Positions 27,223 through 34,550 of a DNA stretch of 37,643 bases are shown here, piece by piece. The position numbers and the translations under genes are program-made. The notes below the pieces were generated by a model that did not search any database, was not told the origin of the DNA, and saw only the letters and a program-made list of their open reading frames with translations. This stretch comes from a virus. Position 1 is the first letter of the stretch, and every line of letters begins with the position of its first letter. The stretch is taken from positions 1-37,643 of IMG/VR virus record IMGVR_UViG_3300042509_000432. The stretch is one strand, 5' to 3'.

Positions 27223-27564
27223 TCAGACCGCCACGCTAGGTTCGTTTCGATAACACATCAGCGAGACCCACTGTCTGTCATCGTGCTCAAAAACCTCTGC
27301 GATTCGCCAACTATTGCCTCTAAACGTAATCGAGTAATCCTCTTGATTATCCGATACGGTCCGTATATTCGGCGTGTAGTTAACGATAAAGTCCATCATG
27401 TTGTCGTATTGCCTGAACTTCTCTAACGTGCGAATCCGATTGTGAACCGACTTAGTTTTTGCTCGCGTCTTAAACCAAAGCGTCTCGACCGTCGTTTGCT
27501 CACCTAAATTCGTGATGGTGAACGACAGATTATTGATGCTTATCTCGTCGACGCGTAAGACCAT
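27223..27564 (-). CDS. Head-tail joining/head closure protein
   Basis: A 113-residue beta-barrel-type protein (GEQTTVETLWFKTRAKTKSV, EDYSITFRGNSWRIAEVFEH, DDRQWVSLMCYRNEP). The ...W.I..V...DD R.WV.. ending is characteristic of phage head-tail joining (SPP1 gp16/HK97-type stopper) proteins, which seal the connector after packaging. TAATG links it to the connector gene before it. Assignment combines pattern with order. Confidence 0.7.
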   Translation of the reverse strand: MVLRVDEISINNLSFTITNLGEQTTVETLWFKTRAKTKSVHNRIRTLEKFRQYDNMMDFIVNYTPNIRTVSDNQEDYSITFRGNSWRIAEVFEHDDRQWVSLMCYRNEPSVAV

Positions 27565-28208
27565 TACATCACCAGCGGCTTGTAGACGCGTAGAAGCTGA
27601 TCCACTGCAAAAGGAATCTGTTTTAGATTTTCAGCGGATGTAGCCGAGCGGTTGTTGTACAAGTGAGTAAGAAGCATGAGACCGGCTTGCTTGACCACAG
27701 GATACTGGCCGATTACCGAGCCCTGTAAGGTGTACTGACAAAGCATCGGAGCAGTCATGTAGGTGTTGATGTTGTTGGGAACCTCAAAGAGAACAATTTT
27801 GTTCCCGGTGGGGTCGTAGTAATAGTTTGAGCTTGTGATCGTCGTTAAGACCGGAGGATTCAGGTCGTTGTAATACTTGATCCAATTTATCGTCACACCA
27901 TTTTGCGAGACTTCGGGTAGATCAAGACTTACAGGTGCAGCCATAAGCCCCGAAATCATGTAGGAAGCCTGATAGGTAACGTTAAAGACCGGAACGCCTA
28001 AGTAGTCCTCAATCGCCATCCTTGTGGCAAGTTCTAACTGAGCAAGGTAATCGTCTTGCGACTCATCTTGAAACAAATTCAACTGATTGGTGATTTCTTC
28101 GTAAGTAAGCCATTGAGTCACCGGATCACGGGTGCTCTGAATGACCTTTGAGTAGTTGAACGGGTTTCTAGAACCCGCTCCGAAGTTACCTTGCAGTTGT
28201 GATGGCAT
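27564..28208 (-). CDS. gp6-like head-tail connector (adaptor) protein
   Basis: A 214-residue protein. The N-terminal helical part (TYEEITNQLNLFQDESQDDY-LAQLELATRMAIEDYLGVPV) and C-terminal VVKQAGLMLLTHLYNNRSAT ... IPFAVDQLLRVYKPLVM are the hallmark of HK97 gp6-like connectors, here separated by a strand-rich insertion (PEVSQNGVTINWIKYYN, SSNYYYDPTGNKIVLFEVP). It should form a ring under the portal. Located directly after the second capsid gene. Confidence 0.85.
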   Translation of the reverse strand: MPSQLQGNFGAGSRNPFNYSKVIQSTRDPVTQWLTYEEITNQLNLFQDESQDDYLAQLELATRMAIEDYLGVPVFNVTYQASYMISGLMAAPVSLDLPEVSQNGVTINWIKYYNDLNPPVLTTITSSNYYYDPTGNKIVLFEVPNNINTYMTAPMLCQYTLQGSVIGQYPVVKQAGLMLLTHLYNNRSATSAENLKQIPFAVDQLLRVYKPLVM

Positions 28209-28209
28209 C

Positions 28210-29235
28210 TTAGGTTCCGATCAAACGTACACCGGCAGTTACATCACGAACGGTCGAGACCATCCGCTTTTCAGCATAGATCGTAATCGTTCCGGGTTGG
28301 GTCTGCTCCATTCTCTGAAGCGTCATCTCTGAATGATCGACGATCCACATAAACCGCGGCCAGTTCGCAAGATAAATCGGAGAAGCACCGGCAGCGGGAG
28401 CATCCAAATAAGGATTAGCAATAACCGGCCAGCCCATAATGTTTACCGCAGGGCCTTCGTCCTTTTCGCCAACTTCAACAAGCGCGTAAGAATTACCAGA
28501 GTGTGCATACTCTCGGAGAATCTGAATAGCTGTCGGGTGCATCATCCACGCAGTTCCCGGCATTCTCCAAAACTGACCGGGAAGAGCATTAGCAACGTCT
28601 ACAAGCGTTTCCCATTCAAGGTTTGTATGCGTAAAGCCAACCGTGTTAAGTGTGTGAATGCCCGCTGTGATGGCCGTTCCTGACGTTCCGTAAGCAGCGG
28701 ATGATCCAGCAGTGCCAGCGTACATCTTCAAGCCTCTAAGACCGTTTGTAGCGCCTGTGGAGGTTGTTGTAGAGCCTGCCTGATCGTTATTGATTGCCAT
28801 AGACGCAGCTTCGATCTGGCTAAATTCCATTGCGAGATCTTCAACAAGCGCAGCGTCTAATCCGTTGATGTCATCCATCGCCGCTGCCCTGATTGGCATC
28901 TGAGCGGAAATAACACGCATCGGAAGCTGCCAAATGGATGTGGCGATGTTGGGTGAGCCTGAGTTAGCGTTGACTGTGTAGCCCCACGGGTTTGTGGAGT
29001 TCGCAGCGTTACCCGTTTTGACAACAAACTGAATATCCGAGTCTGCCGTCATTGTCTGATTTGCATAAACCCGAAAAGGGTTCCAGTAACGAAGCGATGC
29101 AAACACATCTTCGTTGTATACGCGACCGCCAACCCCGCTGCCTGAGCCGGTTAGGGCTGAGGCTTCCGAGAGGTTGACAGTGCTTTTGCCCTCGTGGAGA
29201 GCCTCTTTCAAGCCTTCCAAAATCACCTGTTTCAT
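28210..29235 (-). CDS. Second HK97-fold major capsid protein paralogue, without delta domain
   Basis: A 341-residue HK97-fold protein clearly homologous to the gene just upstream. Shared blocks include EASALTGSG..VGGR, VKTGNA...WGYTV, ATSIWQ, AQ.PIR.AA.DDI.GL.A, MEF.Q..A.SM..NNDQ.G, GLRGL..YAG, FGTSGTA/YGTSGTA and QT.PG.IT.Y.E.R..(S)TVRD..AGVR. It begins MKQVILEGLKEALHEGKSTV and has only about 23 residues before EASALTG, so it lacks the coiled-coil scaffold domain. The ATG at 29233-29235 has GGAG 5-7 bases ahead; an earlier in-frame ATG at 29277 would place the intergenic hairpin inside the gene. It may form pentamers, decorate or co-assemble. Confidence 0.85.
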   Translation of the reverse strand: MKQVILEGLKEALHEGKSTVNLSEASALTGSGSGVGGRVYNEDVFASLRYWNPFRVYANQTMTADSDIQFVVKTGNAANSTNPWGYTVNANSGSPNIATSIWQLPMRVISAQMPIRAAAMDDINGLDAALVEDLAMEFSQIEAASMAINNDQAGSTTTSTGATNGLRGLKMYAGTAGSSAAYGTSGTAITAGIHTLNTVGFTHTNLEWETLVDVANALPGQFWRMPGTAWMMHPTAIQILREYAHSGNSYALVEVGEKDEGPAVNIMGWPVIANPYLDAPAAGASPIYLANWPRFMWIVDHSEMTLQRMEQTQPGTITIYAEKRMVSTVRDVTAGVRLIGT

Positions 29236-29251
29236 AGTCTCTCCAAAAGGG

Positions 29252-29269
29252 AGAGGGCTTGCGCCCTCT
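29252..29269 (-). terminator. Terminator-like hairpin between the two capsid genes
   Basis: On the minus strand AGAGGGC-GCAA-GCCCTCT forms a perfect 7-bp stem with a GNRA-type tetraloop, followed by CCCTTTTGG. The T-run is only four bases, so it is at best a leaky terminator; it could also be an mRNA-stability or processing element. It sits in the 38-base gap between the two capsid genes, just before the ribosome site of the second. Confidence 0.6.
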
Positions 29270-29273
29270 TTGA

Positions 29274-30623
29274 TCAAGCAGCCGTACCGGTCGAACGATA
29301 ACGCACACCAGCGTTAGGATCGCGCACCGAAGTGGCTGCACGAGTCTCGCCATAGAACGTGATCGAACCGGGGAGCGTCTGGTCGTATCTCCTTAGAACC
29401 ATCGAGAGACGCATAACGATCGTGTGGAACTGCTGCCAGTCGCCGAAATACATCGGATAGTAAGACGTAGTTCCTGCTGCGCCGGTGGTGGGCTGGCTGG
29501 GGTTATCAAGGTACTTGTTGACTGCAACCTTGAAGCCGAGCAACTCACCAACGATGCCATCAGTGCGCGACAGACCGTCGATGTAGATCGGACGCTTTTG
29601 ATCGTCCACGAGACCGCGGATGCCCTGAAGGAGGATCGGGTTGATCATGAACGCTGCGCTGGCCGTCCAATACTGCTGTGGCAAGCTGTAGATGAAGTTA
29701 ACAACATCTTTGTAGACGATATTGTTAGCTGCAACCGTGTTGGCGTTTGTCGTAAGCTGATCGTAGGTAGCAAGCGAGTGCAAACCGTTGGTAGTTGCAG
29801 TTCCCGAAGTACCGAAAGCAGCCGTCGAGCAAGAACCGCCCGTGTAGGTTGCATTAGCGCCTGCGTATTGATCTAAACCGCGCAGACCATCAGCGCCACC
29901 CGTCGTTACAGAGGTTCCGGTTCCCGACTGATCGTTATTCTGGATCATTGAGGTTGCCATTGCCTGCTGGAACTCCATCAGCATATCGTCAACAACGTTA
30001 GCCTCGAGGCCGTCGATGTCATCAAGTGCTGCGGTACGGATCGGGAACTGAGCGTTCAAGTCCTTAAGGATCACTTGCCAAATGCTTGTGGCTTCAGTCG
30101 TGGGTGTGCCGTTGTTTTGAACGGTGTAGCCCCACTGAGCGCCTGCATTGCCGGTTTTGACTCTAAATTGATATGCGGAGCCGTCAGTTGCAACAATGCG
30201 CGACAGATCCATCAAGGGATTTCCGAGCCTCTTTGCAGCGAACACGGGATCGTAAGCTGTACGGCCACCAACGTCGTAGCCCGAACCCGTAAGAGCCGAG
30301 GCTTCCTTGATGTACGCTTCGCACTGATCGACCGATTCAAAGATCTTGACTTCGCGCTCAATGTTGTTACCGGCCTTAACGTACTCTTTGAGAACGTCCT
30401 TAAAGCGACGATTTGCTTCGCCACGAACGGTCTTGTGAATCGGACGGATGATCGAAGGAGCGGCAACTTTTGCCTCTAAAGCGGCAATCTTTGCCTCTGT
30501 TTCAGTCTTAAGCGACTCGACAGCCTCAGCAACTTTTGCCTCAACAGCCTGTGCGGTTTCTGCCAATTTGGCAGCGCTAGATGCTTCAATTGCATCCAGT
30601 TTTTCAATGACTTTTTCCAACAT
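29274..30623 (-). CDS. Major capsid protein, HK97 fold, with N-terminal delta/scaffold domain
   Basis: A 449-residue capsid subunit. Residues 1-55 are an Ala/Glu/Lys coiled coil (KVIEKLDAIEASSAAKLAET ... EAKIAALEAKVAA), the delta domain that serves as internal scaffold and is removed by the prohead protease; the mature protein probably begins between ~90 and 107, before EASALTGSG. The HK97 fold follows (QFRVKTGNAGAQWGYTV, DDIDGLEANVVDDMLMEFQQ, SLPQQYWTASAAFMINPILL, SITFYGETRAATSVRDPNAG). A clear AGGAG lies 9-10 bases before the ATG. Flanked upstream by the protease and downstream by its own paralogue. Confidence 0.92.
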   Translation of the reverse strand: MLEKVIEKLDAIEASSAAKLAETAQAVEAKVAEAVESLKTETEAKIAALEAKVAAPSIIRPIHKTVRGEANRRFKDVLKEYVKAGNNIEREVKIFESVDQCEAYIKEASALTGSGYDVGGRTAYDPVFAAKRLGNPLMDLSRIVATDGSAYQFRVKTGNAGAQWGYTVQNNGTPTTEATSIWQVILKDLNAQFPIRTAALDDIDGLEANVVDDMLMEFQQAMATSMIQNNDQSGTGTSVTTGGADGLRGLDQYAGANATYTGGSCSTAAFGTSGTATTNGLHSLATYDQLTTNANTVAANNIVYKDVVNFIYSLPQQYWTASAAFMINPILLQGIRGLVDDQKRPIYIDGLSRTDGIVGELLGFKVAVNKYLDNPSQPTTGAAGTTSYYPMYFGDWQQFHTIVMRLSMVLRRYDQTLPGSITFYGETRAATSVRDPNAGVRYRSTGTAA

Positions 30624-30634
30624 TTTGAAATCTC

Positions 30635-31396
30635 CTAACGGGTTGAAATAGCTTTGAGCAACTCGCGGTATTCAAGCGCTTTCAGCAACTCCGCCGCATC
30701 AGACTCACTCTGAGTGGCAGTTTGTTGATCGCCCACAGCATCACGCTGTTCCAAAATGGCTTTCAACACACCGGACGCGGCGGTCGCATCCCGGCGAGAT
30801 AGCCCTGCATCACGCAAAGCCTTCTCAATCGTTCTCGGATTGGGTTTCGTTCCCATCCAATACTCAAGTCTACTAATCTCAGCCTTCGGGTTATTCGGCT
30901 GCATCACAATGGAAACTTCGGCTAGACCACCTTTGACGATCTGAAAGAACATGTCGGGATCGTCTGTAGGCTCGCCGTTTTCATCCACCATTTGATACTC
31001 ATCTGCATACGCACCAACAGAAACGCCACCAACCATCCGGGGCGATTCCTTCATGATCGTATAAAGATCAGACCCGGAAGTGGTGTTCAGGAAGATCTTT
31101 CCTGTGCCGGTCATGCCTTCGTCCGTAATGTCGAACTTCGACCACTCACCAACAGGCATCATGTCTGAAGAGTGCTGGAAGTACATAGGAAGCGGCCTTC
31201 CTGCTTCCATCCACATCTCGTGCCACGCCTCAAAAGCCTCTGGCGTATAAAAGAACCGTCGACCGTCTGCGCCTTCTCTCGCGCCCCACGTCGTAAGTGT
31301 GGCTTCGATTTCACCCATAGGTTCGCCCGTTGCCTCGTCAGCTTTCCTGCCTAACTCAACTTTGGCTTCGTAGAAAAAAGTGATGTTCTTAGCCAT
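30635..31396 (-). CDS. Prohead maturation protease (HK97 family)
   Basis: A 253-residue protein. The catalytic region reads RPLPMYFQHSSDMMPVGEWS with His75, then GTGKIFLNT and RMVGGVSVGAYADEYQM with Ser126, then GGLAEVSIVMQPNNPKAEI, matching the HK97 prohead protease (His-Ser) fold. It cleaves the delta domain off the capsid subunits during maturation. The C-terminal ~70 residues (LSRRDATAASGVLKAILEQR ... ALEYRELLKAISTR) are helical and probably serve as a scaffold/targeting tail. The ATG at 31396 has AAGGA 9 bases upstream and overlaps the small gene before it. Confidence 0.88.
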   Translation of the reverse strand: MAKNITFFYEAKVELGRKADEATGEPMGEIEATLTTWGAREGADGRRFFYTPEAFEAWHEMWMEAGRPLPMYFQHSSDMMPVGEWSKFDITDEGMTGTGKIFLNTTSGSDLYTIMKESPRMVGGVSVGAYADEYQMVDENGEPTDDPDMFFQIVKGGLAEVSIVMQPNNPKAEISRLEYWMGTKPNPRTIEKALRDAGLSRRDATAASGVLKAILEQRDAVGDQQTATQSESDAAELLKALEYRELLKAISTR

Positions 31397-31493
31397 TGAT
31401 AGGTTCCTTTTTAACCATTCCATCTACCAACTTAGGCTTTGGCTTTCTCTTGTCTGCCGCGGCCTTGAGTTTCTCTAATAGATCCTTAAGCAT
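31389..31493 (-). CDS. Possible small basic protein between portal and protease (34 aa)
   Basis: A 34-codon frame, MLKDLLEKLKAAADKRKPKP then KLVDGMVKKEPING, starting 8 bases before the portal stop and ending 8 bases into the protease gene. Overlap at both ends and sensible amphipathic/basic sequence support translation by coupling, but there is no independent ribosome site. The frame is open further upstream inside portal (to 31682) in a less plausible sequence. It might otherwise be merely the leader that couples protease to portal. Confidence 0.4.
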   Translation of the reverse strand: MLKDLLEKLKAAADKRKPKPKLVDGMVKKEPING

Positions 31494-32883
31494 TTCCGGC
31501 TCTGCCTGTTTTACCGACCACCTTAAGGTTTCCGCCGCCTCCCGTGTCTTGCGGAGAGCTACCGGGAATAGCGCCAGCATCACCAGCGACAAGCAGCAGA
31601 TCATCAGCACCATCGAGAGAGTTAAGTCCCAAATATTCACGTGCCTCATTCTGAGTAAGAATCCCATTCTTAACTCCTGCAACGACGTAATTCATCTGAT
31701 CCAGCGGAGCGCCCTTTAGGAAGTCTTGCGTCTGAAACTGAACGTGTAAATTTGGATAGCCTTTTAGTAGCGCCAATTTTAACCGCTGCTCGACGTTCGT
31801 AATGAACGGCATCATCGTGCTCTTGTAAAACTCATCTAGCATCGTTTGAGTATTGTTGTACTTTGACTCACCGACTCCGATCATCGCGGGAGGCACACCA
31901 AACAATCCACAAATTCGCGTCATTGTTTGTTTCTTAAGCTCTCTTGCATCCACATCCTGAAGCGTGAGAGGCTTGATGGCTTCGTAGGTCATGCCCTGAT
32001 CCAACAACATAGACTGCCCCGGCTTACTCTGATCCGAAGGCTGGCTATTAAGCATGTTCGTCCACGCTTCTTTTAGCCTGCTAGCAATCTCTTTGAACTT
32101 TGAGTCAGGGATGACTTGCTCAGTACGGAATAAACCCGAGGGTTTTGCACCGTTAAGCATAATGAAGTTGGAATAGAGGTCGATGTCCTGATCTAAGGAA
32201 ACCAACTCGACAGCTTGCAAGCGGTTGAACGAACTGGAACCTTGCCACGGCTCGCTCTTCGTGTGCATCACCTGAAAGTACTTGAGTGGCTCGTCTTTAT
32301 TGAAGCCGTAAGACGAACTTGTAAGCGTGTAGAAGGGATAACGCGTCTCTGAGATCCTCGGCACGATTAGCGTCGAGTCTAAGACGTACATCTCCAGCGG
32401 GATCTGCGTCGGTTCCTGCGCGTCTTTCCTCCAGAGTAATACAAAAGTCTCACCGGCTAGCTCATGCCACATTGTGAACTGATACCAAAACTCGTATTGA
32501 CTCTGGAAATTATTAGGATTCGCAAGCAAATTAAGAACGCTTGCTGCTCGGCTCTTTTCGCGTTCAGGAACAGTCGGATCGGTCTGTGTGTCCACAAACG
32601 TGCCGTCAGCCTGCTTAGACATGATCTTTACAGGCAGTTGAGCAAGAGAACGTGCTTTTGCCCCTACGCAAGCCATTACAGTTGAGTTTCTAGCAAGTGT
32701 CGTTATATCGACAGTTCGCCCTGCTTCGTTAACAGCAGAGGTCGTTACATACAGTAATTGGTTAGATCCGTAGCCCTGCCCCTTACCGCGGAGCATGACG
32801 TTGTTGCCTAAAACAGTGTTGCCAAAGAGCGAATTCGACTCTTTTTTGTCTGTTTTACGCTTAAATACGTCGAATAAGCCCAT
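31486..32883 (-). CDS. Portal protein (HK97 family)
   Basis: A 465-residue portal subunit. MGLFDVFKRK, RNSTVMACVGAKARSLAQLP and NPNNFQSQYEFWYQFTMWHE are N-terminal hallmarks; later come FQVMHTKSEPWQGSSSFNRL and CGLFGVPPAMIGVGESKYNN with the following EFYKSTMMPFITNVEQRLKL, the classic HK97 portal segment. It forms the dodecameric gate for DNA. The ATG at 32881-32883 is preferred over TTG 32895 because GAGGA lies 5 bases upstream. The C-terminal tail is Gly-rich and disordered (PQDTGGGGNLKVVGKTGRAG). Confidence 0.92.
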   Translation of the reverse strand: MGLFDVFKRKTDKKESNSLFGNTVLGNNVMLRGKGQGYGSNQLLYVTTSAVNEAGRTVDITTLARNSTVMACVGAKARSLAQLPVKIMSKQADGTFVDTQTDPTVPEREKSRAASVLNLLANPNNFQSQYEFWYQFTMWHELAGETFVLLWRKDAQEPTQIPLEMYVLDSTLIVPRISETRYPFYTLTSSSYGFNKDEPLKYFQVMHTKSEPWQGSSSFNRLQAVELVSLDQDIDLYSNFIMLNGAKPSGLFRTEQVIPDSKFKEIASRLKEAWTNMLNSQPSDQSKPGQSMLLDQGMTYEAIKPLTLQDVDARELKKQTMTRICGLFGVPPAMIGVGESKYNNTQTMLDEFYKSTMMPFITNVEQRLKLALLKGYPNLHVQFQTQDFLKGAPLDQMNYVVAGVKNGILTQNEAREYLGLNSLDGADDLLLVAGDAGAIPGSSPQDTGGGGNLKVVGKTGRAGNA

Positions 32884-32891
32884 TTTTATCC

Positions 32892-34550
32892 TCAAAAGAC
32901 TCTGAATCCGTACGATTCAGACGGCATCGGGTTGTCCAGACTACAGTGCATCGCAATAATCAAGGCAATAATCCCGTCAACCTTAGCGTGGCGATCCACA
33001 CCGGCTTTCTTGACTTTGATGTTGCCTTGAACGTCTGTAAACACTTCGCAATTGCCCAGTTGATGTCCTAAGAATGGGTTTCCGTCGTGTCTGATTTTGT
33101 GGCTTAGAATGAGTCGCTCGACATGCTTCGACGGGTTAGAAAGCACCGCCATTCCTTGACCGACTTTCTTTACCGGCATTCCAACTTCATAAAGCCTTGC
33201 TACTAAAGCCGCAGCATTGTAAGCGTCGTAGCCTACTTCTTTTATGTCGTATTTCTGGCTTTGCCCAATAATATACGCCGAAATCTCTCTATCGTCCATC
33301 ACGTTACCTTCCGTGATGTGCAAGATCCCCGAATTGATCGCTTGTCTAAAGATGTCTTGATAATGAGTAGGCAGTAATTCAAAGCCATCCTCGGGAAGAA
33401 AGAACTTCCACTCGGCTTCGTAATCGTCCTCGGCAAACCTCTTTAACGTACAAACCGCGTTTAGATCTCGTGTTGCTGCTAGGTCAAAACCGATAAATAC
33501 AGCTTCGGGTTCTCTTTCTGTCAGCCCTACGGATTCATCCCAGTGAGTCCTATCGACCCACGCGGTTTCAGCAGAGACGTAAACGTTAAGTGTTTTGCAA
33601 AGAAACTCGTTAAGCGCAGCGGGCTTAATCTTCGCCTCTTCACATCGCGCAACAATCGCGTCGTGCGAAACCGAGATATTGTGCATCGGGTTAGCTTTAG
33701 CCCACGTCTTTTCGTCTCTCCAATCGTCTCCGGCATCCAGAGAGTAAAGAAGGCCAAACCATCGAGGATTGTCAGGAACATCCTGATGGAGGATATGCTC
33801 CATCACCTGAAAGTCCTCGAAAAACTTTGTGTCGCGAGTAAAAGAAGCGGTCGTAATGTATAGCCGAAGAGGATTAAGCCGAGATACCATCCCTGAATGC
33901 AAGACCTCAATCGCATTCCTGTCTACGATCTGGCTCGCTTCGTCAATGATCGCGCAAGAAGGGTTGAGCCCGTCTCCGGTCTTTTTAGTGTCTCTGGAAA
34001 GAGCTTTCATCATGCTCTGGCTGTCGCCAGATTTGGTGATCGTAAACTTACCGGGAACAAACAAACCGGAGAGTTCTTTCGGCATTGTCTCAACAAAGCC
34101 CTTAGCCGTCGTGAAAACAATTGAGGCCTGATCCCGGTTTGTAGCGAGCGTGTAAACCTCAGCTCCTGCTTCTCCAAACCCTAGCTCATAAAGTGCGATC
34201 AGCGCCGTTAATGTCGATTTACCAGCCTTGCGCGGGATGTAGACAATGACATCCTGCACCATCCGCTTTTGTCTGTCTTTCTTACTCCTGAATCCGTAGA
34301 TGGCACAGATAATAAGAATCTGGAAAGGCTCCAGCGTAACGGGATGTCCAGCCCATTGACCTTTTACATGCTTGCAAAGTGCGGTGAACTGTAGAAAGTG
34401 ATTGACAGGGCCGGGATCAAATATCCATTCCCATTCTTTATTTTCTATGTGATTTAGAAACCGCTGGCAAGCGAGACGCACATTTCTACACGCGTCAATA
34501 TCACCCTTTACTACGCTAACAGCGTACTCAATCCCATCTTCTAGTTTCAT
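32892..34550 (-). CDS. terL: Terminase large subunit
   Basis: A 552-residue packaging motor of the HK97/Terminase_1 type. The ATPase has a deviant Walker A PRKAGKST (106-113) and Walker B CAIIDEAS (199-206) followed by the coupling strand LRLYITTASFTRDT. The C-terminal RNase-H-like nuclease starts at VFIGFDLAATRDLNAV with Asp356 and continues with EVGYDAYNAAALVARL and a final Asp in HAKVDGIIALIIAM. It cuts concatemers and pumps DNA into the prohead. The start overlaps terS (ATGA) and the portal ribosome site overlaps its stop. Confidence 0.95.
   Translation of the reverse strand: MKLEDGIEYAVSVVKGDIDACRNVRLACQRFLNHIENKEWEWIFDPGPVNHFLQFTALCKHVKGQWAGHPVTLEPFQILIICAIYGFRSKKDRQKRMVQDVIVYIPRKAGKSTLTALIALYELGFGEAGAEVYTLATNRDQASIVFTTAKGFVETMPKELSGLFVPGKFTITKSGDSQSMMKALSRDTKKTGDGLNPSCAIIDEASQIVDRNAIEVLHSGMVSRLNPLRLYITTASFTRDTKFFEDFQVMEHILHQDVPDNPRWFGLLYSLDAGDDWRDEKTWAKANPMHNISVSHDAIVARCEEAKIKPAALNEFLCKTLNVYVSAETAWVDRTHWDESVGLTEREPEAVFIGFDLAATRDLNAVCTLKRFAEDDYEAEWKFFLPEDGFELLPTHYQDIFRQAINSGILHITEGNVMDDREISAYIIGQSQKYDIKEVGYDAYNAAALVARLYEVGMPVKKVGQGMAVLSNPSKHVERLILSHKIRHDGNPFLGHQLGNCEVFTDVQGNIKVKKAGVDRHAKVDGIIALIIAMHCSLDNPMPSESYGFRVF

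Follow-up and report, generated by a model that had tools for sequence, protein, structure and literature searches.

The window, by which we mean the whole 37,643-nucleotide stretch of viral DNA analyzed here, carries two tandem genes for HK97-fold capsid proteins, of which the first product, MCP1, has an N-terminal delta (scaffold) domain and the second, MCP2, has no delta coiled coil. Judged from gene content and sequence, the pair is confirmed as an old, fixed arrangement in a widespread freshwater phage group. The best explanation, which we favor with moderate confidence, is that MCP1 forms the hexamers of the shell and MCP2 serves solely as the pentamer (vertex) subunit. The two genes lie in a head module on the minus strand, in the order portal, S78 protease, MCP1, MCP2, with the following features:

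32892..34550 (-): terminase large subunit (TerL; PF20441, PF03354)
31486..32895 (-): portal protein (PF04860, E 3e-56)
30635..31423 (-): prohead maturation protease, peptidase S78 (PF04586, E 3.5e-9)
29274..30623 (-): MCP1, HK97-type major capsid protein with N-terminal delta (scaffold) domain, 449 aa (PF05065, TIGR01554)
30459..30620 (-): delta-domain coiled coil of MCP1, residues 2–55 (helix 2–54 in the model; no MCP2 counterpart)
29245..29269 (-): GC-rich hairpin AGAGGGC-GCAA-GCCCTCT, then CCCTTTT, between the MCP1 stop and the MCP2 start (stem -12.8 kcal/mol)
29236..29244 (-): MCP2 Shine-Dalgarno (GGAG) and spacer, from the sequence
28210..29235 (-): MCP2, second HK97-fold capsid protein without the delta coiled coil, 341 aa (TIGR01554, structure model)
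29170..29235 (-): short N-terminal segment of MCP2, residues 1–22, helix and strand in the model, kept in relatives
27564..28208 (-): head-tail adaptor (phrog_40), beginning 1 nt past the MCP2 stop without a hairpin between

The original prediction of two tandem HK97-fold capsid genes holds, as both open reading frames are present and a BLASTP comparison of their products gives 144/342 identities (42%, E 1e-65). The alignment begins at EASALTGSG, runs over 342 columns, and ends near the C-terminus, and the sequence blocks that the two proteins had been said to share are found within it. MCP1 scores well above the cut-offs of both PF05065 (E 1e-22; 81.2 bits against 24.2) and TIGR01554 (92.9 bits against 27.5; profile positions 13–381). 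MCP2 likewise exceeds the TIGR01554 cut-off (62 bits against 27.5; profile positions 87–381), but has no match to PF05065 at E 0.001, TIGR01554 being the only curated model of which it is a member; it also matches phrog_10, and the HK97-type family represented by TIGR01554 and phrog_10 is common to both proteins. Sequence searches of the PDB with MCP1 or MCP2 as single sequences returned nothing meaningful. Matches came with profiles built for each protein, and the best sequence-profile match to both is the capsid protein of the R. capsulatus GTA (RcGTA). The structure model of MCP2 (pLDDT 67, pTM 0.72) retrieves the same capsid, 6tb9, as its top structure (E 2.4e-16), with HK97 structures among the next best, and a complete HK97 fold in MCP2 is well supported by this modeling. 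The model of MCP1 is poor (pLDDT 52) and too unreliable for a domain-by-domain comparison. Translation of MCP2 starts at the ATG at 29235, with GGAG 5 nt upstream; a longer form of 355 aa from the TTG at 29277 was ruled out, because relatives conserve the inner ATG.

The two proteins differ most visibly at their N-termini. MCP1 has the hallmarks of a delta scaffold, namely the modeled helix 2–54 and a TIGR01554 match that begins at profile position 13, whereas MCP2 has a short leader and a match that begins only at position 87, which indicates that most of the delta region is missing from it. No counterpart of the MCP1-type coiled coil was seen in any MCP2 examined. An N-terminal coiled coil with linker had been described for MCP1 only; this is borne out for the coiled coil, but MCP2 retains a conserved short leader, modeled as a helix (residues 2–15) and a strand (residues 17–21). 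The leader motif, ILxGIKxALxEGxxVxxxL, is conserved in relatives and precedes the shared E-A-S motif. The accompanying idea that MCP2 needs no delta cleavage may be wrong, since residues 1–22 could be a short propeptide and gp24 of T4, likewise an MCP paralog and the nearest known analogue of MCP2, is cleaved too (PMC5694885).

A survey of relatives for the two-gene arrangement, which the original prediction had proposed, found MCP1 followed by MCP2 at 260 of the 281 related loci collected from contigs of IMG/VR and GTDB, a set that includes some contigs fetched twice and yields 176 distinct pair sequences. Of the remaining 21 loci, 19 have only one of the genes, located where the contig ends, and two have a single frameshift, one in MCP2 (L130) and one in MCP1 (L212); these frameshifts are most simply explained as assembly errors. 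No single-MCP relative within the family was seen among the 281 loci, each lone gene being located at a contig end. In a tree of 70 representatives, all MCP1 sequences fall on one side and all MCP2 sequences on the other, and since each protein thus forms one clade, a single duplication before the spread of the group is indicated; the root is only weakly placed, since the outgroups KS9, RHph, and YPHTV sit on very long branches. Both MCP1 and MCP2 have a median dN/dS of 0.063, a sign of strong purifying selection, and the second gene appears to be retained, with neither relaxed selection nor loss of core residues seen in relatives. The only named phage with the pair is the Methylophilaceae phage P19250A (KX815270), a 38.6-kb siphophage of freshwater LD28 (PMC8163748), in which MCP2 is annotated as 'hypothetical protein'; a search for further cultured relatives with their own two capsid proteins found none. 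Pair-bearing phage contigs from GTDB (L179, L181, and L182) are also binned in MAGs assigned to Alphaproteobacteria, Gammaproteobacteria, and 'Candidatus Nitrosotalea'; the archaeal case is probably mis-binned phage DNA. Two capsid proteins of uncultured Caudovirales in BFVD (A0A6J5SIT1 and A0A6J5N0Q7, 414 and 435 aa) have 37–38% identity to the MCP2 model and are possibly relatives of MCP1 or members of a single-MCP sister group.

The spacer between the two genes, on which the original prediction did not comment, holds a conserved hairpin, defined here as an uninterrupted stem of at least six pairs, at least four of them G-C. Of the 119 distinct spacers of up to 110 nt, 115 have one directly 3' of the MCP1 stop, compared with 13% of dinucleotide shuffles, and two of the four exceptions (L272 and L273) still fold strongly and have a T-run. 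The 5' arms comprise 71 distinct sequences, which implies that pairing is maintained as the sequence varies; at least five T follow within the next 12 nt in 83%. The T-run of the window itself (CCCTTTT) is weak, and the site falls below the terminator cut-off of the prediction tool. Behind MCP2, no hairpin was found at any of 109 loci in relatives, where the median gap between MCP2 and the adaptor gene is 2 nt, and a search for a promoter of MCP2 found none. The hairpin is likely a partial terminator or attenuator of transcription, but its role may instead be to protect the end of the mRNA. A hairpin is also present 3' of the single MCP of KS9 and RHph_X2_25, which suggests that MCP1 holds the ancestral high-output position; MCP2, in turn, seems to occupy the transcript segment behind the hairpin.

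The spacers show some further variation. At 29239–29256, CTCTCC and GGAGAG can pair as a second hairpin, which would hide the Shine-Dalgarno sequence of MCP2 and exclude the first hairpin; this pairing is found in all 14 distinct spacers of the window's clade and in none of 110 others, and could be an extra translational control of MCP2. One lineage with four distinct spacers (L188, L189, L198, and L265) has an open reading frame of 100 aa, with no significant match in Pfam, inserted between the hairpin and MCP2, and here the hairpin stays with MCP1. Another locus (L261) has a small open reading frame, HNH-endonuclease-like by eye, between the two capsid genes.

Codon usage, as an independent estimate of expression, separates the two genes in the same direction. 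In the window, the ENC is 42.7 for MCP1, 49.7 for MCP2, and 58–61 for the genes of TerL, portal, protease, and adaptor, and the share of AGA, AGG, CGA, and CGG among arginine codons is low in MCP1 (19%) and the major tail protein (20%) and higher in MCP2 (62%) and in the four genes just named (40–85%). MCP1 has the strongest codon bias of the genes tested, its ENC being below that of MCP2 at 97 of 109 loci. When codons are scored on an index derived from the MCP1 gene of the respective phage, MCP2 is level with the major tail protein (0.615 against 0.614) and scores higher than the portal in 64/69 comparisons, the adaptor in 84/98, and TerL in 51/52. This grading suggests a requirement for MCP2 in the range of tens to hundreds of copies, fewer than for MCP1. 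Together with the hairpin after MCP1, which like codon bias is an indirect predictor of expression, it leads us to predict that MCP2 is a shell protein of lower copy number than MCP1.

The sequence divergence between the paralogs is unevenly distributed. With segment borders set by hand, the two families share on average 0.55 identity in the N-arm and 0.53 along the spine helix, and the value drops to 0.19 in the segment corresponding to MCP1 residues 337–362, for which conservation within the families is 0.64 and 0.43. By its position in the HK97 fold, this segment would belong to the axial domain, which lines the capsomer center, where pentamers and hexamers differ most. That the paralogs diverge most there and are most alike in the N-arm and spine helix fits MCP2 as a vertex subunit. 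As a point against this reading, the axial domain varies more than any other part among the MCP2 sequences themselves.

These observations bear on several alternatives to a hexamer/pentamer division. The main rival, which we regard as rather unlikely, is a mixed shell, in which MCP1 and MCP2 share the same hexamers (and pentamers) in a fixed or variable ratio, and MCP2 dilutes the interior delta domains or tunes stability. The conservation between the paralogs in the N-arm and spine helix, higher than elsewhere in the proteins, would suit such mixing, and two HK97-fold paralogs of a Family 2B encapsulin do form variable mixed shells (PMC12407261), so that the same is conceivable for MCP1 and MCP2. 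However, the asymmetry in expression signals is itself conserved, in both the hairpin and the codon bias, and the strong divergence of the axial segment makes mixing inside one capsomer less likely.

Alternatively, MCP2 might act only during assembly or at a special place, such as the portal vertex, in procapsid nucleation, or in size control, leaving few or no copies in the virion. Its gene almost abuts that of the head-tail adaptor and lies behind the hairpin with low-copy genes, as this would predict, but its codon bias matches that of the major tail protein and surpasses that of portal and adaptor, and it retains the full shell fold, which is why we consider such a role improbable. That MCP2 is a redundant copy, a duplicate in decay, or an artefact of assembly is made very unlikely by the survey: although two frameshifted copies could be read in this way, each affects one paralog, as random assembly errors would, and the fixation of the pair, the low dN/dS, the single old clade, and the presence of both genes in the cultured P19250A all speak against it. 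Of the earlier proposal that MCP2 is a vertex or minor subunit, a retained shell subunit without its own scaffold is upheld by fixation, strong selection, signals of lower expression, and the full fold, and the vertex is the most plausible of several candidate placements.

For the favored division into MCP1 hexamers and MCP2 pentamers, we infer copy numbers, T number, vertex position, processing, and attenuation by the hairpin as follows. MCP1 and MCP2 would descend from a single HK97-type capsid gene by one ancient duplication and would now share the shell. Abundant MCP1, with its own delta scaffold, would form the hexamers, amounting to 360 copies if T=7, the value expected for a 38-kb genome. 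MCP2, encoded behind the attenuator hairpin alongside connector genes, would be made at a lower level and, having no coiled-coil scaffold, would enter MCP1-scaffolded procapsids as pentamers, amounting to 55 copies if T=7. Cleavage by the S78 protease would then release the delta domain from MCP1 and perhaps the short leader from MCP2. Counting against a vertex role, single-MCP phages of equal genome size, to our knowledge, need no vertex subunit. A literature search for virion proteomics or cryo-EM of this phage group found none.

Among known systems, P19250A has the same tandem pair (58% and 56% identity), gene order, and hairpin after MCP1, and does not differ in kind. Burkholderia phage KS9 shares the order portal, protease, MCP, hairpin, adaptor, but has a single MCP in place of the pair. 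The RcGTA capsid protein Rcc01687 (6tb9) is the closest solved fold as well as the best profile match to both proteins; RcGTA uses one capsid protein only. The named single virus with two HK97-fold proteins in separate roles is T4 (PMC12407261), where gp23 forms the hexamers and gp24 is present at the vertices in 55 copies, both having N-terminal propeptides (PMC5694885). Like the phages described here, T4 has two HK97-fold paralogs; in T4 the second is the lower-copy one and located at the vertices, as is proposed for MCP2. Unlike T4, the present phage is a 38-kb siphophage with an S78 protease and a delta domain fused to MCP1. Neither MCP1 nor MCP2 matches the T4-type capsid family in Pfam at E 0.001, which, together with the different class of phage, argues for a duplication separate from that of gp23 and gp24. 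Whether small siphophages have thereby arrived at an independent second vertex/hexamer split, through MCP duplication, loss of the fused scaffold, and a dose set by a conserved attenuator, is in our judgment an evenly balanced question.

Paired HK97-fold shell paralogs also co-assemble in the two-component Family 2B encapsulin of Streptomyces lydicus (PMC12407261), but this is a cellular compartment with cargo, a nucleotide-binding insertion, an irregular mixed shell, and neither portal nor protease. Instead of lying in a cargo operon without packaging genes, as in two-component encapsulins, the pair described here is flanked by genes for portal, TerL, protease, and adaptor. An MCP duplicate is also known from phage Colossus, where it is translocated and diverged (PMC3556154). 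A search of the literature on tandem capsid genes in small phages found nothing specific; JBD30, SU10, and Adjutor were rejected as precedents, being matches of wording only, as were Brevibacillus paralogs, which are regulators. New here are the conserved hairpin after MCP1 and the graded codon bias.

A freshwater lineage with a fixed pair of scaffolded and unscaffolded capsid proteins would provide an independent natural experiment on how pentamers are distinguished from hexamers, and would also bear on whether every shell subunit needs a scaffold. As P19250A is cultured and carries the pair, the question is directly testable, and many genes now annotated as 'hypothetical' would gain a function.
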